A model generated the notes under the pieces. The model was not told where the DNA came from. It made no database searches and saw nothing but the letters and a program-made list of their open reading frames with translations. This document shows, in pieces, positions 2,385 through 14,082 of a DNA stretch of 17,795 bases. Numbering within the stretch: the stretch's first letter is position 1; each line of letters begins with the position of its first letter. Origin of the DNA: Acidobacteriaceae bacterium (GTDB taxonomy: Bacteria; Acidobacteriota; Terriglobia; Terriglobales; Acidobacteriaceae); the NCBI GenBank assembly GCA_030040395.1, contig JASHTU010000081.1:1-17795 (forward strand). The letters run 5' to 3'. The position numbers were made by a program, and so were the translations under genes.

Positions 2385-3311
2385 ATGCCCTCGATCGTCA
2401 AAATCCTGCGCGTAGCCGCCGATCCCAACCGGCTGCGCATTTTGCTCCTCCTTAAAGCTGAAGAGCTCTCCGTGGCCGAACTGCAGGAAATCCTCTCCAT
2501 GGGCCAGAGCACCATCTCCACGCACCTCTCGCAGCTCAAGCAGGCGCGCCTCGTTGAAGATCGCCGCACCGGCAAGAGCAATTTCTACCGCGCCACTTCT
2601 GCGGAGGGCAGCCCTTTGCACGAGATTCTCGACCAGGCAAAAAAGGAGATCCCTGAAGCCTCTCTCGACCAGGCCGCGATGCGCCGCGTCCTCAAAAAGC
2701 GCCAGGACAAAATGCGCGCCTTCTTTGACTCGGTGGCCGGCCGCTTAGGCAAGGACTACGTGCCGGGCAAGTCGTGGAAGAGCCTCGCCGAGGCGCTGCT
2801 GCGCCTCATGCCGCCGCTCACGATCGCCGACCTGGGCGCAGGCGAGGGAGCCTTTACGCTGCTCCTCGCCGAGCGCGCCAAGCGCGTTATCGCCGTCGAT
2901 GCTTCGCCGCGCATGATCGACGTGGGCCGCGAGCAGGCCCGTCGCCACGGCGTCAAGAACGTGGATTTCCGCCTCGGCGACATGGAGGAGCTTCCCATCG
3001 GCGACGCCGAAGTCGATCTCGTCTTCTTCTCCCAGTCCCTCCACCACGCCCTGCACCCTGCCCACGCCGTCGAAGAAGCCGCCAGAATCCTCGCTCCCGG
3101 CGGCCGCATCGTCGTCCTCGACCTCGCTAAACACCGCTTTGAAGAAGCCCGCGAACTCTACGCCGACGAGTGGCTGGGCTTCTCTGAAGCGGAACTCGAA
3201 ACTATGCTGGAAAAAGCCGGCTTCAGCAACGTCGAAACCGCCGTCGTCGACAAAGAGCCGGAAACCCCGCAGTTCCACACGCTGCTTGCAATTGCTGACA
3301 AATCCGCTTAA
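2385..3311 (+). CDS. sahR: SahR-like regulator: ArsR winged helix fused to SAM-methyltransferase domain
   Basis: This is a 308-residue two-domain protein. Residues 1-75 form an ArsR winged helix (LRVAADPNRLRILLLL, then recognition helix MGQSTISTHLSQLK and wing RTGKSNFYRAT). Residues from about 125 form a class I methyltransferase fold: motif I DLGAGEG at 149-155, acidic loop VIAVDAS, GDMEELP, then VDLVFFSQSLHH and LAPGGRIVVLDLAKH. ArsR-methyltransferase fusions called SahR, described in proteobacteria, bind SAH and repress methyl-cycle genes; here the gene is divergent from ahcY with metF beyond, which matches. Whether the domain methylates anything or only senses SAH cannot be told. The ATG follows a run of seven T and has no Shine-Dalgarno, yet starts exactly where the ArsR fold should begin. 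A plain methyltransferase with an ArsR domain is the alternative. Confidence 0.85.
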   Translation: MPSIVKILRVAADPNRLRILLLLKAEELSVAELQEILSMGQSTISTHLSQLKQARLVEDRRTGKSNFYRATSAEGSPLHEILDQAKKEIPEASLDQAAMRRVLKKRQDKMRAFFDSVAGRLGKDYVPGKSWKSLAEALLRLMPPLTIADLGAGEGAFTLLLAERAKRVIAVDASPRMIDVGREQARRHGVKNVDFRLGDMEELPIGDAEVDLVFFSQSLHHALHPAHAVEEAARILAPGGRIVVLDLAKHRFEEARELYADEWLGFSEAELETMLEKAGFSNVETAVVDKEPETPQFHTLLAIADKSA

Positions 3312-5141: not shown

Positions 5142-5238
5142 ACAGGGGCGGCCGCCGGCCGCCGGTGCGTCCACGCGATGAAGGGAGATGCTCTAAAATG
5201 CTTCGTGGCGCTTCTACGTCAAAGTTCGCGGAGAAACC

Positions 5239-5985
5239 ATGCGTCTTCCGTCCTTCGCTGTCATTCTCCTCAGTCTGCCCGCCATCGCCGCTGCACAAAA
5301 CACCGTTCCCTGGGGCTACCAGGGCAAGTACGGCCCGCTGATGTGGGGCAAGCTCAGCCCGGCTTATGCGGCCTGCGCAAAAGGCCATGAGCAATCGCCG
5401 GTGGATCTGGGCGGCGCCCGTCTCGATTCCGCGCTCCAGCCCCTCCAGTTCCACTACGTCGCCGGCCCGGTCACGCTGGCAAACGACGGCGGCACGATCG
5501 TCGTCCGCGTCGACCCGGGCAGTTCCATGGTCGTCGGTGGCGTGCGCTATGAGCTGACCGAACTCCAGTTTCGCCATCCCAGCGAACACGCCGTCAAGGG
5601 CAGGCTCGCCAACATGGAAGTCGATCTTGTCCATCGCAGCGCCGACGGCAAAATAGCCATCCTCGGCGTTTTGCTGACCGAGATCCGGGACTTTCCCAAT
5701 GCCGCCATGGCAACGCTTTGGCAGCATCTGCCCGCGATTCCGGGCGCTTCAACGCAGATCACGGATATGATCGATCCCGCCGGTCTTTTCCCCCCCGACC
5801 GCGGCTATTGGACTTATACTGGCTCGCTCACCTGGCCGCCCTGCACCGAAGGCGTACGCTGGTTGATCTTTCAGCAGGAAGTGAGCATCAGCCGCGGCCA
5901 GTTGGACGCCTTCTCCCGGCTCTTCCGCATGAACACGCGCCCCTTGCAGTCCCCCCACGGCCGCCGCATCGAAGCCAGCGAATAA
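5239..5985 (+). CDS. Alpha-carbonic anhydrase-like exported protein lacking all zinc ligands
   Basis: This 248-residue protein has a signal peptide (RLPSFAVILLSLPAIAAAQ, cleavage near 19-20) and the alpha-CA fold throughout: WGY at 25-27, QSPVDL at 52-57, PSEH at 114-117, MEVDLVH near 126-132 and SLTWPPCTEGVRW at 196-208. The two cysteines that usually form the disulfide (46 and 202) are kept, as is the threonine of SLT. But the three zinc histidines (94, 96 and 119 in human CA II numbering) align with Gln110, Arg112 and Asp129, and the proton-shuttle His64 position is Gly85. It is therefore very unlikely to hydrate CO2 with zinc. It may be a binding or structural paralogue, like vertebrate CA-related proteins. 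GGAG sits 5 nt before the ATG; TAAAAT at 5194-5199 is a weak -10 candidate. Confidence 0.9.
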   Translation: MRLPSFAVILLSLPAIAAAQNTVPWGYQGKYGPLMWGKLSPAYAACAKGHEQSPVDLGGARLDSALQPLQFHYVAGPVTLANDGGTIVVRVDPGSSMVVGGVRYELTELQFRHPSEHAVKGRLANMEVDLVHRSADGKIAILGVLLTEIRDFPNAAMATLWQHLPAIPGASTQITDMIDPAGLFPPDRGYWTYTGSLTWPPCTEGVRWLIFQQEVSISRGQLDAFSRLFRMNTRPLQSPHGRRIEASE

Positions 5986-6055: not shown

Positions 6056-6742
6056 TCAACCGTTCGCCAGCGGCGCCAGGCTCAGGACCAGGTCGCCGCC
6101 GTCGCGCGTAGCCTTGACGCCGGTGAGGTCCTTCACCAGGTAGTGCGCGGCTTCAAGCGATTCAATGGGATGGGAAAAGGTTGTGGCAACCACCGTGCAG
6201 CCGGCGGCGCGGCCCGCCTGCGCGCCGGAAGAGGAATCCTCAAAGACGACGCAGTCTCCGGGCGCGAAGCCGAGCAGCGTGGCTCCAGCCGCGAATGGTT
6301 CAGGGTGGGGCTTGCCGCGGGTCACCTGATCAGCTGTCACCAGCCGCTTGGGCACGGGAATGCCGCCGGCCGGCATGCGGGCGCGCGCCAGGCGCTCGGT
6401 GGCGCTGGTGACCACCGTCCAGCAATCTTCAGGCAAAGCCGTGAGCAGGTCCAGGACGCCGGGCAGCACCGTCAACCCCTCGTTGTCCCAAATTTCAAGC
6501 TCCTCGATGACTTTCAATTCCGCCTCGCTGTCCAGGTCGGGGCGCAAGAGCGCCAGGGTCTCGATGGCTCGCCGGCCGTGCGCAATACGGATCGTGTCGG
6601 CGGCATTGACTCCGCGCATCTCTGCCCATTTGGTCCAACTGCGCTCAACCGAGCCGAGCGACGAGATCAGAATGCCATCCATGTCGAAAAGCACTCCCCG
6701 GCAGTGGAGCTGAACCGGGGAAGGAGCAATGGAAGAGCCCAT
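6056..6742 (-). CDS. HAD-family sugar-phosphatase-like hydrolase
   Basis: This 228-residue HAD subfamily IA hydrolase is a cytosolic, Mg-dependent phosphatase that uses an aspartyl intermediate. Motif I is DMDGIL with nucleophile Asp20 and Asp22, motif II is VTSAT with Ser112, motif III lysine is Lys144 in RGKPHPEPF, and motif IV is VVFEDSSSG with Glu168 and Asp169. The four-helix cap follows motif I (SLGSVERSWTKWAEMRGV). The pattern resembles the sugar-phosphate and glycerol-3-phosphate phosphatases; the true substrate cannot be read. I chose ATG at 6742, directly before the first strand; the reading frame stays open upstream to 7123, but that part overlaps the 3' end of the AsmA-like gene. 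No Shine-Dalgarno is seen; a TACAAT hexamer 6 nt upstream suggests a leaderless mRNA. It is convergent with the carbonic-anhydrase-like gene. Confidence 0.9.
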   Translation of the reverse strand: MGSSIAPSPVQLHCRGVLFDMDGILISSLGSVERSWTKWAEMRGVNAADTIRIAHGRRAIETLALLRPDLDSEAELKVIEELEIWDNEGLTVLPGVLDLLTALPEDCWTVVTSATERLARARMPAGGIPVPKRLVTADQVTRGKPHPEPFAAGATLLGFAPGDCVVFEDSSSGAQAGRAAGCTVVATTFSHPIESLEAAHYLVKDLTGVKATRDGGDLVLSLAPLANG

Positions 6743-6748
6743 AGGTCG

Positions 6749-6754
6749 ATTGTA
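6749..6754 (-). promoter_or_regulatory. -10-like hexamer TACAAT before the HAD gene
   Basis: TACAAT on the minus strand ends 6 nt before ATG 6742, so transcription would start at or next to the A of the start codon. No convincing -35 hexamer is visible 16-18 nt upstream. Confidence 0.4.
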
Positions 6755-6855
6755 TCGGGGCCGCTCTCCGGTGTGCGCCGCGGGCAAGGGCCCCCGCGTT
6801 GCCGTCATTGGGCAGCACCGGAAATGGGGCTTGCGCGAGGATCGAATATCCGCGT

Positions 6856-9507
6856 CTACGGCTTTTTTCCCCCCCGTCTGGGCAGAGTCAGGCGGAGTTT
6901 TGGCGGGTCCGCGAGGGTGAGAGAGGCTTCCAGCGGCTGCGCGCGTGAGCCCACCAAAATGCGGCTGTTTTTCAGGGTGACAACGCCATCGGCGATCTCG
7001 GCGTCGGCGTTCCAGCGACTGAAATGAAGCGGCGCGGTATCCGTAGCGGTCAGGGTTCCGGCGGCGGACTGCGGTTCGTCTGGAACCTCCGCCGCGGGTG
7101 CCGCGATGGTTCCGCGTAACCATTCGAAATGCAAATCGCCCTTGGCGGATTGGGCCAAGTCCTTGCCCGCGAAACCGGAGAGAGTCACTTTGCCGGCGGC
7201 ATTGAAGATCCCCCCCGGCCAGTCCAGGCCGAGCAACCGGCCCATCGCCTGAGCGCTCAGCTTATCGAAATGGCAGTCAAGCGTGTAAACGGGTGTGTTC
7301 GGGTCCGTCCCGGAGCGGTGCATTGCGCCGGAGCCGCTCAGGCGACCGCCGAGCAAACCGCCTTTGAGATCGGAAAACTCGGCTGCGTCAGGCAAAATCC
7401 GCAACGAGACCGACGGGGCGCTCAGCGTGACCGGGCCGAGCACGAGCGTACCGGCCTCAACCGTCCCCTCCATTTGCGGCCAAGCGGGTGCGGATGAAAG
7501 ATGCAGCCGCGCAATAACAGTTGAGAGCAGCGTGTCGTGCTCCCGCGCTCCCAGGAAGGCGGCCTGGAGGGCGGCGGCGTCGAGATTGGCGAACTGTATA
7601 TGGAAGTGCGGAAGGCAAGTTGCGGGCGCGGCAGGCGAGGGACAGACATCGGGGACCGTCAGTGCTGCCGTCCCTTTCACTGGGCCAAAGGAAAACGCCA
7701 CGGGGTCCCAGCGCAGTTCATCGCCGCCCAGATGGAGCGTAGCCTGGGCAATCTCCACACGGTTGGCCAGATAATCCGCCCTCCAGGTTGCGTTATTCAG
7801 GATCACGGTTCCCGTGAGCGAATCCCCGGACTGAGGCCCTCCGGCATCGGGTGCGCCCATTCCCACAGCCGTTCCTGAAGAATCCTCGCCAGCGGCCGGA
7901 ACCATCCCGTCTCCCTGAACCGCCATCCACGGCCCTTCCGCGCTGAGGTCGAGGCTGGCGGGTTCGCCGGCGAGCGCGTCGAAGGCTGAAGCATCGGGCA
8001 ATCCGGCGGCGTGGGCAAGCTCCCTGGCCCGAGCCATGCTAGCCTCACCGCGCAGCGTTGCATGGTAGCCGTCGCGGGCCAATCGCAGATTCACAACCAG
8101 CGGAGCGGTCGCCCCGGAGGGAACCACGGCCGTACCGGTCAGAGCTTCAAGGTGGTCCCCCTGGGACAAACCCGGCTCAAGAACAATCTTCGACGCGCGA
8201 ATCGGCTGGTTGAGTCCGCCGCCGCTAAGCTCCAAACCTTCAATGGCGAGGCTACCGGTTAACGGGCCCTGCGCGGCCAAACCTTGATGCCGCGTTCGAT
8301 TGCCGCTGCGCTTCGGCCCTCCCTTTTGGCTTGGCGGCCGGGCAGCGTAGGCGATCTTCCCGCTGACCACGCCCGCGACTTCAAGGTCCGGAGCAAATCC
8401 GCTGCGCAATGTGCGCAAAAGGTCGAGACCGGCGGCCACGGGAATGCGATCCAGAAGGAGAGAGAAATGCGGCGTGGCTCCGTCTTCGGCCAAATCGCCG
8501 GTAAGCTGCACGCGACCGTCGCCCAACAGCGAGTTACAGACGACGTTTTCGAGTGCGCGCCGGGAATAGTGGTTGACAAAGGCGCAGTTGGCGTCGAAGT
8601 CCAGCGGTTCGGCCGGGGCAAACTCGGCGCGGCGCACGCCCATGGCCTGCAGGCGCGTGGTGACGCGGGCAGATCCCGGGGTCCCCTCGAGGTGCAAATT
8701 GCCAGTCAAGTCGCCGCGCCAGCCTGCGTCGGAGCCGGTTAGAAGCCGGCTGAGTTGGCCAAGCTGCGCCTCGCGCCAGTCCAAATCGAGATGCACAGGC
8801 ATATCCAGCAGCCTGGGCGCCCGGGTGAGCGTCGCTTCCAGCCGCACAATGCCGGTGTCGGCCAAATTCAGGCTCACGTCGGTGCGCGCCGGCTGGCCGC
8901 GGAGCCGGATTCGCCACACGCCGGGGCTCTCCTGCCAGAAGGAAAGATCGGTGTTGACGAGCGAAAATGGCAGCTTCTCGGCGCCGTTTTTGAAATTGAT
9001 GCGGGAGTTCGTGGCTTCGAGGGAGGGCAGAAGGATGGCGTGGCGTTCACCGGCAACTGAGCCGCCCGCTTTGGCGGCGCTGCGAAACAACGGATCGAGG
9101 TTCCAGCGTCCAGGCGTGGAACGGACCAGGTTGAGGCTGGCTTCGTCCACGCTGATGCTGCCGATTTCCAGACGGCCTCGCCACAACGGCAGTAGACGGA
9201 TCGAAGCGGTGACGGAATTAGCATGGAGGACCGGCTCGGCTCCATACGCAGGATCTTCAGCCACGGTGAGATCGGTAAGCACAAAGCCCGGCCAGGGAAA
9301 CAGCCGCAACTCTACAGAGGACAGGCGCACCGGACGCCCCAGAGACGCGGCGATCAGTTCAGTGATGCCTCCCTTGTAACGCGCCACGCTGACCAGCGAC
9401 GGAACGAATACCACGGCTGCCAGAATGGCCGCCGCCGCAATCAGAATCCAGCGCAGCCGCCTGCGCCCGACGGCAGGTTGCCGAAGTTGCGCTTCCTGCG
9501 TCCCCAT
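6856..9507 (-). CDS. AsmA-family envelope protein
   Basis: This 883-residue protein has a short basic cytosolic N-terminus (RRRLRW), one membrane helix (ILIAAAAILAAVVFVPSLV near 22-40) and a long periplasmic part. After the helix come the family features IAASLGRPVRLSSVELRLFPWPGFVLTDLTVAEDP and, further on, IGSISVDEASLNLVR, typical of AsmA N-terminal domains. The C-terminal third again has repeated beta-strand motifs with the LLGGRLSGSG pattern of AsmA-like C-terminal regions. AsmA/YhdP/TamB relatives form periplasmic beta-groove bridges linked to lipid transport to the outer membrane; the exact role here is unknown. ATG 9507 or the GTG at 9513 may start it; a TAGAAT hexamer at 9520-9515 leaves only 7 nt before the ATG. 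It follows the second signal peptidase gene by 18 bp and probably shares its operon. Confidence 0.87.
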   Translation of the reverse strand: MGTQEAQLRQPAVGRRRLRWILIAAAAILAAVVFVPSLVSVARYKGGITELIAASLGRPVRLSSVELRLFPWPGFVLTDLTVAEDPAYGAEPVLHANSVTASIRLLPLWRGRLEIGSISVDEASLNLVRSTPGRWNLDPLFRSAAKAGGSVAGERHAILLPSLEATNSRINFKNGAEKLPFSLVNTDLSFWQESPGVWRIRLRGQPARTDVSLNLADTGIVRLEATLTRAPRLLDMPVHLDLDWREAQLGQLSRLLTGSDAGWRGDLTGNLHLEGTPGSARVTTRLQAMGVRRAEFAPAEPLDFDANCAFVNHYSRRALENVVCNSLLGDGRVQLTGDLAEDGATPHFSLLLDRIPVAAGLDLLRTLRSGFAPDLEVAGVVSGKIAYAARPPSQKGGPKRSGNRTRHQGLAAQGPLTGSLAIEGLELSGGGLNQPIRASKIVLEPGLSQGDHLEALTGTAVVPSGATAPLVVNLRLARDGYHATLRGEASMARARELAHAAGLPDASAFDALAGEPASLDLSAEGPWMAVQGDGMVPAAGEDSSGTAVGMGAPDAGGPQSGDSLTGTVILNNATWRADYLANRVEIAQATLHLGGDELRWDPVAFSFGPVKGTAALTVPDVCPSPAAPATCLPHFHIQFANLDAAALQAAFLGAREHDTLLSTVIARLHLSSAPAWPQMEGTVEAGTLVLGPVTLSAPSVSLRILPDAAEFSDLKGGLLGGRLSGSGAMHRSGTDPNTPVYTLDCHFDKLSAQAMGRLLGLDWPGGIFNAAGKVTLSGFAGKDLAQSAKGDLHFEWLRGTIAAPAAEVPDEPQSAAGTLTATDTAPLHFSRWNADAEIADGVVTLKNSRILVGSRAQPLEASLTLADPPKLRLTLPRRGGKKP

Positions 9508-9514
9508 CTTCACG

Positions 9515-9525: not shown

Positions 9526-10368
9526 CTAACGCGTCCGGTGAAAGGTTCGCTTCCACCGCGTATCGGTGAAGAAGTGGAGCGCCACGTGCCCCATCCACGC
9601 GATTCTGTGCACGAGTCCGGTTTGCTCGTATTCCGACTCCGGAGACTTGAACGACCAGTAATTGAACAGCGGACGGCCAATTATGTTGGCGCGGGGCACA
9701 AATCCCCAGTAGCGCGAATCCTCGCTATTGTGCCGGTTGTCGCCCATCATGAAGTACATGCCCGGCGGCACCACTAGGTCTCCGTTCTGGATGTAGTTCG
9801 GAAACGCCACGTCCCAGGACTCGGTTGAACCGGGAACTTCGCCCGGTGGAACGGAGGGAAACTCGTCCAGAAACTCATTGAAATTGTCGGGCGTGGTCGG
9901 CTGCGCATTGGGCTGCGCCTGGGACACGCCGTTGATGATCACAATGCCATCGCGCAGGTGGATGTGATCGCCCGGCACGCCGACGAGGCGCTTCACCAGG
10001 AACAAGTACTCCGGCTTGCCGTCAGCATCTATTGGATCGCCTGGCGAGCTGACCGGCTTGATAAAAACAATAATGTCGCCGCGCCGGGGCTCACGGTAAC
10101 GGACCAGGGGCATCCAATGGGCCGGCGGAGCCAGCGTGATGCGGTCCACCACCAGGTGGTCGCCGACCAGCAGCGAGTTTTCCATCGAGCCTGACGGAAT
10201 AACGAAGTTCTGGGCCAGAAAGGTGAGGATAAAAAGACCCACCACCAAAACTGAACAAATGCTGGCGACCGCCTCGTAGGTCGTCTCTTCCACCCTTTCC
10301 GGTTCTGCTTCCGGCTTGCGCGGGGCCTCGGGCGCCGCTTTGGAAACCAATACCTTCTGCTTTGTCAT
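9526..10368 (-). CDS. lepB: Signal peptidase I, second tandem copy
   Basis: This 280-residue type I signal peptidase removes Sec and Tat signal peptides at the outer face of the inner membrane. A charged cytosolic tail (1-31) precedes one membrane helix (ASICSVLVVGLFILTFLAQ near 35-53). Next come box B IPSGSMENSLLVGD with catalytic Ser61, box D VKRLVGVPGD with the general base Lys126, and box E GDNRHNSEDSRYWG at 209-222. The Ser-Lys dyad is intact. A loop between boxes D and E (about 145-195) is Pro/Asn rich. ATG 10368 is preferred: an AAAGAG stands 6 nt upstream. An in-frame start at 10422 would add 18 residues through an 18-bp direct repeat. It follows the other signal peptidase gene by 66 bp and shows only family-level likeness to it, so the duplication is old. 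Confidence 0.94.
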   Translation of the reverse strand: MTKQKVLVSKAAPEAPRKPEAEPERVEETTYEAVASICSVLVVGLFILTFLAQNFVIPSGSMENSLLVGDHLVVDRITLAPPAHWMPLVRYREPRRGDIIVFIKPVSSPGDPIDADGKPEYLFLVKRLVGVPGDHIHLRDGIVIINGVSQAQPNAQPTTPDNFNEFLDEFPSVPPGEVPGSTESWDVAFPNYIQNGDLVVPPGMYFMMGDNRHNSEDSRYWGFVPRANIIGRPLFNYWSFKSPESEYEQTGLVHRIAWMGHVALHFFTDTRWKRTFHRTR

Positions 10369-10402
10369 CAATCGCTCTTTGCGGATCAATCGCCCTTTGC
10401 GG
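10367..10402. repeat. Tandem 18-bp direct repeat at the start of lepB copy 2
   Basis: Two adjacent 18-bp units, 10367-10384 and 10385-10402, differ at a single base (T or C at unit position 10). The 18-bp length equals six codons, and the unit carries both the purine-rich AAAGAG/AAAGGG and the ATTGAT before the start, so it duplicates the ribosome-site region. Confidence 0.8.
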
Positions 10403-10434
10403 AAGAACTCGCCCGGTCCCAAGTCGGACCTGAA

Positions 10435-11217
10435 TCAGTGAACCACGCGGAAGATGCGCTTCCAGCGCGCAAATTCCTTTAACCGCGCCGAAATTTCCCC
10501 ATCGTGTCCGAGTCTATCATCCGCCGCTTGATCGACATCGGTGGCCGAAGGCCGGGAGAGCGAGAAGTAGATAATCAGCGGGCGGGCGACGATCGCCTGG
10601 CGAGGCACCAGCCCCCAATAGCGGGAGTCCAGACTGTGATTGCGGTTGTCGCCCAGAACAAAATACTCGCCTTTGGGAATCACCAGCTCGCCGTTGTGCG
10701 TCAATCTTTGCATCAGCCGCCACCAGTCGGGATCGACGTCCGGGTCGGTGTAGATTTGGGGTGGAAAATCGTCCCGGAATGAGTTGGGCGGCGCCGGCTC
10801 GAAGGAGGCGTACGGCTCGTCCAAAGGCGCGCCGTTAATGAACACCCGTCCATCCTCCATGCGGAGATGGTCGCCGGGAACCCCGACCACGCGTTTTACC
10901 AGCAATGGCGGGTTTGGATGATGGAAGACCACAATATCGCCCCGCTCTACCTGCCGGTAGGGCATCAACCACCGGCTCGGCACGTCGAACGGCGCAAAAA
11001 TCTGCTTGTTGAAGAGCAGAAAATCGCCCACCAGCAAGGTGTGCTCCATACTTTCCGAGGGGATGAGGAAGGGTTGCATCACAAAGGTGAGCACAAACAA
11101 CGCCACCACCACTGTGCGCAGCAGCGACGCCAGCGCTTCGGGCAGCGTCGGCATTTGAAGGCGCATGCGCAAGAGCGCGGCGAGGGCTGAACCCGTACGT
11201 TCGGCAAGGGTGGTCAC
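10435..11217 (-). CDS. lepB: Signal peptidase I, first tandem copy
   Basis: This is a 260-residue type I signal peptidase. A membrane helix (TVVVALFVLTFVMQPFLI near 35-52) leads into box B IPSESMEHTLLVGD with catalytic Ser56. Box D VKRVVGVPGD carries the general base Lys108, and box E is GDNRNHSLDSRYWG at 189-202. The dyad is complete. Compared with the downstream copy it has PSESM in place of PSGSM and a different loop between boxes D and E (DDFPPQIYTDPDVDPDWW), so the two may differ in substrate preference. Both end in a similar basic RWKR tail. The start is GTG at 11217; its bases overlap the TGA of rnc (GTGA), implying translational coupling with RNase III, as lepB and rnc are coupled in proteobacteria, there in the opposite order. 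Confidence 0.94.
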   Translation of the reverse strand: MTTLAERTGSALAALLRMRLQMPTLPEALASLLRTVVVALFVLTFVMQPFLIPSESMEHTLLVGDFLLFNKQIFAPFDVPSRWLMPYRQVERGDIVVFHHPNPPLLVKRVVGVPGDHLRMEDGRVFINGAPLDEPYASFEPAPPNSFRDDFPPQIYTDPDVDPDWWRLMQRLTHNGELVIPKGEYFVLGDNRNHSLDSRYWGLVPRQAIVARPLIIYFSLSRPSATDVDQAADDRLGHDGEISARLKEFARWKRIFRVVH

Positions 11218-12258: not shown

Positions 12259-14082
12259 TCACCGTTGCGGCGGCGGCGCGGTTCCGCCCGGCCCCGCGGC
12301 TTCCGGACCAGGTTTCGCGGTTGCGGCTGGCGGCGCGGTGTCGTCGACGTCGTCATCGCACGTGAAGCCGCGCACTGTGTAGGCCGCCTTCACGCCGCGC
12401 TCGGCCGCCAGCCGCGTATCCTCCTGGCCGTCGCGCGAAACCAGCGCCTCCTTGTACTCCGCCACCGCCTCGTCGCGTTTGCATTCCACGTCCAGCAGGC
12501 GGCCCAGGTAGATATGCGACCAGGCCAGCAGACGCTGCTGCTTGCTGGTGGTGATCGTCTTTTGGAAATTATCGATCGCCTGTTCCGGATGGCCGTTCAT
12601 AAGCGCCGCCCGGGCCAGGATAAAGTCGGCGCGGGCGCAATCTTCTTTCGAGGAGGCCGCTCCGGCGGCGAGAACCTTGTTCGCCATCGCGGTCGCCGCC
12701 GCCACGTCGCCGGTGGAGAGCTTGGCTTCGGCCAAATCGAGTCCCGTCAGCTTCCGCGGCGCACTGCGCTGCAGAATCTCTGCGTCGGCCTGCTGGTCGA
12801 AGACGATCTGGCGGGCTCGGTGGATCTCCGCGTCCACGTCCATGCCGTACACCATTTCGCCGATGGTGTCGGTCAGGCTGGCCGGATCCTTCTCGAACTG
12901 GATCAACTGGTTGTAGAAATATCCGGTCAGCACGAAGCCCTGGGTCATGTCATGATGCACCGTGGCCTGGCGCACCGCTTCGGCCTTCTCCAGGGAGATT
13001 TCGCGTTCATGTTCATAGCGGGGCAGCTCGGCGCGGTCCACGCCCTCCGGAACCTTGAAGATCGGAACCCCGGTGTCCATGGTGCGCGCTTCGATGGCCT
13101 TAATCAGGCACTCGATGGTCAGCGGCACTACCCCGGACCGGTAGCTGTAGTCGAGCGGCGCATCGGCAATCACTTTCAAGATGGGCTCTTCGCGGTCGAT
13201 AGCGTTGGAGCGCGCATAGAGCAGCGGATCGATCATGTAGTGGAGATACGTATGGCGCACATCGGCCATGGGAATCTTGCCCTTCACCGGCGACACCACC
13301 ACCACATAGTCGGCCCCGTAGATGCGCGCGTTCACGATGGTGGGCGACAGCATCGGCTCGACCACCACGACGAACCGCCTGCCCTCATAGGAGGAAGCCG
13401 GCATCTTGAGATAAAGATTGGTGGCCACGATCATATGCGAGAGCGGGTCGTGCAGCTCGTCGATTTCTTCATCGTAGGCGTGGCGCGTGGTCAGCCAGAT
13501 GCCGTGCAGATCGACCGCGGCGGCGAACTTGCGGAGAATGGGCAGAATTTCCACCACCTGCGTCGAGTCGGGCGGCATCTCCGTCAAATCGGCCGTCGTT
13601 TCCAGCTCCGGCGCCGGCGTCAGGTAAAGAGCCAGCGAGATGTATTGCGCAATGTCCTTTTCGCTTCCCGTCATGCGGTGCTGCGCGATATAAAGACACA
13701 GCGCGTCGCGGTCGTTGCGGGCCTCTTCGCTCTTCGCCAGCGCCTGGTTCATTTCGTCGCGCACATGCTGGCGGATCGGATCGCTTTGCTGCAGGCCCTC
13801 ATCATAGCCGCAGGCATTCAAAGCCGTGGCCATGATGAAAACCGGCTCCGCGGGGATGAGCGAAATCATCGGCCCGGCCGGATCGACGAGCGAAGGGGCC
13901 TTCTCCTGCACATACATGCCCTGCGATAAAGAAGAAGACGAGGAAGAGGAGGAGCTTTGGCTCGGGGACGAGCTGCCGCTCGAAGATTGGGCGCCGGCGA
14001 AAGACGGTGAAATGCCCGAAAACAAGCAGACCGCCGCCCCGGATAAGAGCAGGGCAAACGATCGAATTCTATGCAAAACCAT
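12259..14082 (-). CDS. Exported TPR-containing protein with Ser-rich linker, function unknown
   Basis: This 607-residue protein has a signal peptide (VLHRIRSFALLLSGAAVCLFSGISPSFAGA, cleavage near 30), then a near-homopolymeric serine linker at about 33-53 and a conserved-looking globular part from 56. Within the latter, VVVVSPVKGKIPMADVRHTYLHYMIDP holds an HTYLH at 277-281, placed like the HExxH of a zinc protease but with Thr for the catalytic Glu. The C-terminal third (about 440-570) has TPR-like helix pairs (LDLAEAKLSTGDVAAATAMA, DFILARAALMNGHPEQAIDNFQ, AWSHIYLGRLLDVECKRDEAVAEYKEAL). A Pro/Gly-rich tail ends it. It should act in the periplasm or at the outer membrane. It leads the block with rnc and both lepB genes. 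No Shine-Dalgarno precedes the ATG; two palindromes lie just upstream. Confidence 0.85.
   Translation of the reverse strand: MVLHRIRSFALLLSGAAVCLFSGISPSFAGAQSSSGSSSPSQSSSSSSSSSLSQGMYVQEKAPSLVDPAGPMISLIPAEPVFIMATALNACGYDEGLQQSDPIRQHVRDEMNQALAKSEEARNDRDALCLYIAQHRMTGSEKDIAQYISLALYLTPAPELETTADLTEMPPDSTQVVEILPILRKFAAAVDLHGIWLTTRHAYDEEIDELHDPLSHMIVATNLYLKMPASSYEGRRFVVVVEPMLSPTIVNARIYGADYVVVVSPVKGKIPMADVRHTYLHYMIDPLLYARSNAIDREEPILKVIADAPLDYSYRSGVVPLTIECLIKAIEARTMDTGVPIFKVPEGVDRAELPRYEHEREISLEKAEAVRQATVHHDMTQGFVLTGYFYNQLIQFEKDPASLTDTIGEMVYGMDVDAEIHRARQIVFDQQADAEILQRSAPRKLTGLDLAEAKLSTGDVAAATAMANKVLAAGAASSKEDCARADFILARAALMNGHPEQAIDNFQKTITTSKQQRLLAWSHIYLGRLLDVECKRDEAVAEYKEALVSRDGQEDTRLAAERGVKAAYTVRGFTCDDDVDDTAPPAATAKPGPEAAGPGGTAPPPQR

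Follow-up and report, generated by a model that had tools for sequence, protein, structure and literature searches.

An exported carbonic anhydrase homologue and its surroundings

The window, the whole stretch of 17,795 nucleotides analysed here, encodes on its forward strand a presumably exported homologue of α-carbonic anhydrases (α-CAs), whose zinc site is occupied by residues other than histidine. Features of the locus are listed below, with residues numbered as in the encoded protein and related to the equivalent α-CA positions.

5230..5234, +: GGAGA just 5' of the ATG, resembling a ribosome-binding site (by eye)
5239..5985, +: exported α-carbonic anhydrase homologue of 248 residues, zinc site lacking histidines
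5239..5295, +: putative signal peptide, residues 1–19, with AAA before Gln20 (by eye)
5374..5376, +: Cys46, probably disulfide-bonded to Cys202
5491..5493, +: Gly85 (GGC), position of the proton-shuttle residue His64 (alignment)
5566..5568, +: Gln110 (CAG), position of the zinc ligand His94 (alignment)
5572..5574, +: Arg112 (CGC), position of the zinc ligand His96 (alignment)
5584..5586, +: Glu116, position of Glu106, retained despite the loss of the zinc site (alignment)
5617..5619, +: Glu127, position of the second-shell residue Glu117 (alignment)
5623..5625, +: Asp129 (GAT), position of the zinc ligand His119 (alignment)
5830..5835, +: Thr198-Trp199, positions of Thr199-Thr200 (alignment)
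5842..5844, +: Cys202 (alignment of genus copies)
about 6056–6816, –: HAD-family hydrolase (PF13419/PF00702), conserved downstream neighbour
6856–9513, –: AsmA-family protein (PF05170), conserved downstream neighbour

The gene is intact and of full length, with 248 codons, a GGAGA element ahead of the start codon, a signal-peptide-like N-terminus ending in AAA before Gln, and two cysteines, in agreement with the undamaged gene described in the first-pass annotation. The signal-peptide boundary is supported by Ala 19 and Gln 20, which are identical in at least 90% of 73 aligned copies, and both cysteine positions are occupied by Cys in 71 of 71 genus copies. The PF00194 profile matches residues 33–247 with 123.6 bits (cut-off 27), and the predicted fold is that of an α-CA. 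In phmmer alignments with proteins of known structure, the segments TELQFRHPSEH and MEVDLVH are placed over KQFHFHAPSEH and FEAHFVH of 6im0 with no gap nearby, which puts Gln, Arg and Asp at the positions of the three histidines. The initial proposal of an α-CA framework, in which His 94, His 96 and His 119 are replaced by Gln 110, Arg 112 and Asp 129 and His 64 by Gly 85, is thus borne out in each of its coordinates by the profile match, the structure alignments and the predicted fold. An alternative alignment that would bring a histidine to a ligand position was rejected. His 113, which directly follows Arg 112, is not a shifted ligand, since its counterpart is also a histidine in 13 of 13 genus copies that carry the full histidine triad (HHH). 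Among the residues expected of the enzyme (EC 4.2.1.1), the window protein lacks all three zinc histidines and the proton shuttle, while the Thr199-Glu106 pair is present as Thr 198 and Glu 116. The protein thus belongs to the sequence and fold family of α-CAs but, judged by these residues, fails the tests for the enzyme.

When the window's genome, 4.1 Mb in size and 77% complete, was searched with PF00194, a single gene was identified. The protein had initially been regarded as an acatalytic paralogue. We reject a paralogue of a working α-CA for this genome, in which no second α-CA was found at the named completeness. Instead, the gene appears as an orthologue of one found throughout the genus, some of whose members have retained HHH. 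Matches were obtained in 73 of 80 genus genomes, including 41 of the 42 of high quality; the seven genomes without a match comprise one of high quality and six that are 63–88% complete. Two matches were found in four of the 80 genomes, of which G086 and G087 involve fragments. The second match in G014 is a distant HHH copy, and G079, with 5% contamination, includes one that closely resembles the copy of G092. In 57 of the 69 other genus copies examined, a count from which the second copy of G079 (G079b) was excluded, a HAD or AsmA gene follows downstream in the opposite orientation; among the remaining 12, eight have at least 2.5 kb of downstream sequence with neither gene and four have too little sequence. 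The genus-wide matches and the shared downstream neighbours together define a single set of orthologues with HHH and non-HHH members, most of which occupy the same locus. A β-CA with CADSR and HSDC motifs is also encoded in the window's genome, and a search across the genus found β-CAs in 71 of 79 genomes.

Other parts of the window contain further genes. Two adjacent signal peptidase I genes (9526–10422 and 10435–11217, both on the reverse strand; PF10502) are situated beside a ribonuclease III gene, and such pairs recur downstream in many loci of the genus. A methyltransferase fused to an ArsR-type DNA-binding domain (2385–3311, forward strand) is encoded next to genes for S-adenosylhomocysteine hydrolase and methylenetetrahydrofolate reductase, an arrangement suggestive of a methionine-cycle cluster that carries a regulator of its own. 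Finally, an open reading frame of 607 residues with a signal-peptide-like start (12259–14082, reverse strand) had no Pfam match at 1e-5.

Zinc-site residues in the genus and beyond

To describe the zinc site throughout the genus, we fetched 72 stretches, 70 of which are of the genus type and, together with the window, make up 71 copies, whereas the distant G014b and G050 were kept apart as outgroup. Outside this count, the triad could be read in fragments of G090 (EHD) and G087 (DHQ); fragments of G068 and G086 and a second one of G087 end short of it, and those of G105 were left out of the alignment. Naming the residues at positions 94, 96 and 119 in this order, 13 of the 71 copies are HHH and 58 are distributed over 20 other combinations. 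The more common triads are HHH (13), EHD (12), DHD (9), DHQ (7), EHE (7), DHH (4), QRD (3) and THQ (3), and QHD, ERH, SHQ, HHQ, NHE, DRH, NHQ, SHE, ERQ, THD, THE, AHQ and SHD are found once each. In 53 of the 71 copies, two or all three of the histidines are missing. The QRD triad occurs only in the window's genome, G020 and G030, and the same three copies are the only ones with a tryptophan at the position of Thr 200. Since G020 and G030 (83% protein identity) share Gln, Arg, Asp and the Gly at position 64 as well as the replacement of Thr 200, we reject an assembly error. Altered triads are also found in good assemblies, such as the EHE copy of G002, which consists of one contig of 5,987,865 bases. 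No internal stops were found in any of the 71 aligned copies. The original observation is confirmed and was understated. Within the genus, QRD is only one among 21 triads.

In a maximum likelihood tree of 73 rows, which was calculated after removal of seven trait columns and rooted on G050 and G014b, HHH copies occupy the first branches of the genus, and the outgroup is HHH as well. The minimum number of changes between HHH and non-HHH on this tree is six. When only losses are allowed, the best tree gives eight for HHH, eight for His 94, 12 for His 119 and three for His 96, numbers that are approximate because no more than 27 of the 70 inner branches carry a star and bootstrapping has not settled. 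The six copies with Arg at position 96 fall on three branches. The tree shows that zinc ligands were lost repeatedly in one gene, with the exact number of events being uncertain.

The other genera of the family contributed 47 copies, of which 33 are HHH, six HHQ and two HHD, with one each of EHD, SHQ, RKQ, NHH, HRQ and RRQ. In other families of the phylum, 35 of 36 readable copies are HHH, the exception being G443 with HRQ. This control initially contained 27 copies, all HHH, to which 11 listed matches in 10 stretches were added; of these stretches, eight are HHH, one is G443 and one (G732:C119) is readable at His 119 only. Ligand loss is concentrated in the family, and above all in the genus of the window, though it is not exclusive to it.

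Zinc ligands are replaced, as in the window, in two further groups of the family and in G443. The genus g60 contributes 14 copies (L140, L141, L144, L146–L147, L149–L154, L157–L158 and L161), seven of which are HHH, six HHQ and one HHD. Here the loss is limited to His 119, as though ligand loss in this genus had only recently begun. A separate kind of α-CA is found in g66 and g82 (L168 in G306, L172 in G317, L171 in G310 and L170 in G268), where the zinc positions of the four copies read RKQ, RRQ, HRQ and NHH and Pro-Ile/Leu/Phe-Cys replaces Pro-Pro-Cys in each of them. The copy of G443 (L212), with HRQ and Pro-Thr-Cys, reads like these altered g66/g82 proteins. In a wider tree of 111 rows, a quick tree that includes a hand-picked 35 of the 71 genus copies and carries a long-branch warning near the g66 copies, the four form a starred clade of their own, apart from the genus, from which ligand loss in this group looks independent of that in the window. 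The single g32 copy (EHD) is placed among the genus copies in the same tree.

Composition and conservation of the altered site

The residues that have replaced the zinc ligands are restricted in kind. In the 58 non-HHH copies, position 119 is Asp in 27, Gln in 15, Glu in 10 and His in six, and position 96 is His in 52 and Arg in six, with nothing else at either site. Glu 106 is retained in all 58 and in 12 of the 13 HHH copies of the genus. An acidic residue occupies position 117 in 49 of the 58, compared to 10 Val and three acidic residues in the 13 HHH copies. Position 64 is His in 12 of 13 HHH copies, and Arg at this position accompanies Asp 119 in 18 of 27 copies, a count with too few phylogenetically independent pairs behind it to establish covariation. 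The emptied site would thus mostly hold a cation, His or Arg at position 96, among carboxylates or Gln at positions 94, 117 and 119. In the window protein, Arg 112 may pair with Asp 129, Glu 127 and Glu 116, and Trp 199 would fill the substrate pocket, an arrangement deduced from the equivalence of positions. We consider that a polar and ion-paired centre has probably taken the place of zinc. Six non-HHH copies (three THQ, and SHQ, NHQ and AHQ) and likewise HHQ have no carboxylate at either position 94 or 119, and the ion-pair picture therefore does not suit all copies.

The same residues could alternatively constitute a different metal site, with EHD, DHD and EHE binding Mn, Fe or Ca for another chemistry and QRD being a derivative that has lost its metal. 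Such a site would account for the conservation of His 96, Asp 119, Glu 117 and Glu 106, each found in 18 of 18 copies of a clade with EHD and DHD triads, where position 94 is Asp or Glu in 17, and for the restriction of position 119 to Asp, Gln, Glu and His in all 58 non-HHH copies. It accords less well with the six copies on three branches that have Arg at position 96, for which an ion pair offers a better fit than a metal, and with the QRD trio, which is devoid of any usual metal-binding set. We thus regard this alternative as rather unlikely.

In the 18 rows of the EHD/DHD clade, 66 of 226 mature columns are invariant, and synonymous codons have turned over at conserved positions (13 CAC and five CAT at position 96, nine GAA and nine GAG at position 117). 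In neutral simulations of this clade, which covered positions 94, 96, 117 and 119, the constancy of position 96, 117 or 119, or the confinement of position 94 to Asp, Glu and Gln, was reached at the mildest rate in two to three runs out of 400, and never in the 400 runs at either of two faster rates. A looser confinement of position 119 to Asp, Glu, Gln and His was seen at the mildest rate in 20 runs out of 400, and never at the others. The replacement residues are conserved beyond neutral expectation, which places the altered site itself under constraint.

Purifying selection is evident in the gene as a whole. Codon models were applied to five sets that cover 51 of the 71 copies, with 20 in none, and yielded an ω of 0.147 for the QRD trio (three rows), 0.140 for EHD/DHD (18 rows, one of them QHD), 0.106 for HHH (13 rows), 0.106 for EHE (eight rows, with one THE and one SHE among them) and 0.158 for DHQ/DHH (nine rows, including one SHQ). 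Fixing ω at 1 worsened the fit by 2ΔlnL of 150 for QRD, 1622 for EHD/DHD and 1396 for HHH. The dN/dS values of the three QRD pairs by the method of Nei and Gojobori are 0.15–0.18, whereas a pairwise maximum likelihood estimate of 0.63 for G000 with G030 is at odds with the two other methods. The maintenance of the gene posited at the outset is in this way sustained. A slow decay, in which function is fading and the substitutions reflect a drift towards gene loss, would be compatible with the seven of 80 genomes lacking a match and with values of ω in non-HHH sets that are equal to or slightly above that of HHH (0.106–0.158 compared to 0.106). We consider it very improbable in light of the absence of internal stops, the rejection of ω = 1 for the QRD trio, the constraint on the site and the fact that only one of 42 high-quality genomes is without a match, the six others being incomplete. 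Least probable of all is a zinc-free pocket that has remained able to hydrate CO2 or a related substrate, for which the retained Thr 198 and Glu 116 and the precedent of metal-free ι-class CAs could be invoked, as Trp at position 200 and Arg at position 96 would crowd and recharge this pocket and the catalytic Thr 199, present in 13 of 13 HHH copies, is conserved in only 28 of 58 non-HHH copies, with seven of the other 30 having Ser.

A presumed pseudoenzyme in relation to known carbonic anhydrases

Our preferred reading, which we hold to be likely, is that of an exported α-CA pseudoenzyme of a soil bacterium, akin to the vertebrate CA-related proteins (CARPs), that has been kept for a non-catalytic job after repeated loss of zinc. 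The window gene would encode a folded CA domain that, from its residues and predicted fold, appears unable to build a His3-zinc site, and hydration of CO2 by the α-CA mechanism would consequently not be expected. It is the ordinary α-CA of the genus rather than a spare copy, and the conserved polar refilling of the emptied site suggests that a binding or structural role has been retained. The residues invariant throughout the genus are in our reading mostly residues of the fold and thus do not pick out a partner surface. The HRQ copy of G443 leaves our confidence unchanged, since this reading does not require ligand loss to be confined to one family.

As driver, an acidic envelope appears likeliest. 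Acid weakens the hold of histidines on zinc, and at low pH there is little to be gained from hydrating CO2 outside the cell. Selection may then have kept a version that folds without metal and serves a non-catalytic purpose, such as the binding of a partner protein or a ligand, in bacteria where extracellular CO2 hydration would matter little and a β-CA is also encoded. We take Edaphobacter paludis to be a member of the same family. This species is described as acidophilic, with growth at pH 3.6–7, in part of a published account (PMC11354219), and in a portion of a Granulicella proteome study CynT is the only carbonic anhydrase named (PMC7315648). Low-pH chemistry and the encoded β-CA would make the loss of zinc affordable, which does not by itself prove the cause, and the retention of HHH by 13 of the 71 copies in the genus, and by 33 of the 47 found elsewhere in the family, counts against acidity as driver.

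A more far-reaching version, which we put forward tentatively and with somewhat less than even confidence, holds that one gene was repeatedly turned into zinc-free proteins, whose conserved polar centres such as DHD, EHD, EHE, DHQ, QRD and others do a new job in the acidic envelope, for example by binding another metal or some ligand. If true, it would provide a natural series of about twenty re-engineered active sites on one scaffold. Variants of human CA II with two His and one Asp can still hold zinc, a His2Asp-zinc structure being among the works cited in PMC10175565, and DHH and HHQ copies may thus not be zinc-free. Human CA II itself binds zinc with a KD of about 4 pM and neither Ca at 10 mM nor Mg at 50 mM, as given in part of another source (PMC9738544).

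Several families provide a frame for comparison. In the α-CA structures 6im0 (Persephonella), 4c3t (Thermovibrio), 6eki and 8w7x, three zinc histidines are aligned at positions where the window protein has none, and the Sulfurihydrogenibium α-CA 4g7a presumably has all three. Dioscorin (4twl), a plant storage protein with α-CA fold, is a relative by fold that differs in role. Bacterial α-CAs are described as zinc enzymes with signal peptides in sections of an overview, in which the word 'acatalytic' was not found (PMC5746736), and our search at the level of titles and abstracts, in mostly non-subscription literature, found no description of bacterial α-CAs with replaced zinc ligands. That pseudoenzyme CAs exist is already known; what is unusual is that, in a single bacterial gene kept by purifying selection, the zinc site has been replaced repeatedly and in many different ways. 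The annotation 'carbonic anhydrase' may often mislead with respect to activity in this genus, where 58 of 71 copies lack the full triad.

The closest likeness is that to the vertebrate CARPs VIII, X and XI and the CA-like domains of receptor tyrosine phosphatases β and γ, acatalytic members of the α-CA family in which at least one zinc histidine is replaced, as stated in part of the literature on these proteins (PMC2873310). CARPs were found to raise lactate transport by MCT1 without catalysis, according to portions of a separate study (PMC6609565). The comparison drawn in the first-pass annotation is supported, since at least one zinc histidine is replaced in an intact gene maintained under purifying selection, and the window protein would be a kept and probably acatalytic version, the likeness being one of logic. 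It differs from CARPs in being bacterial, exported and of a single domain, with all three ligands and His 64 replaced, and in being the genus's own α-CA rather than one of several isoforms, with a zinc site that varies from species to species. The familiar pseudo-CAs are animal isoforms found beside working sister genes, whereas here the sole exported α-CA identified has lost its ligands. Closely related bacteria with versions that still carry the histidines thus offer a natural mutational series, which allows one to ask how metal sites vanish, what refills them and why a metal-free CA persists.
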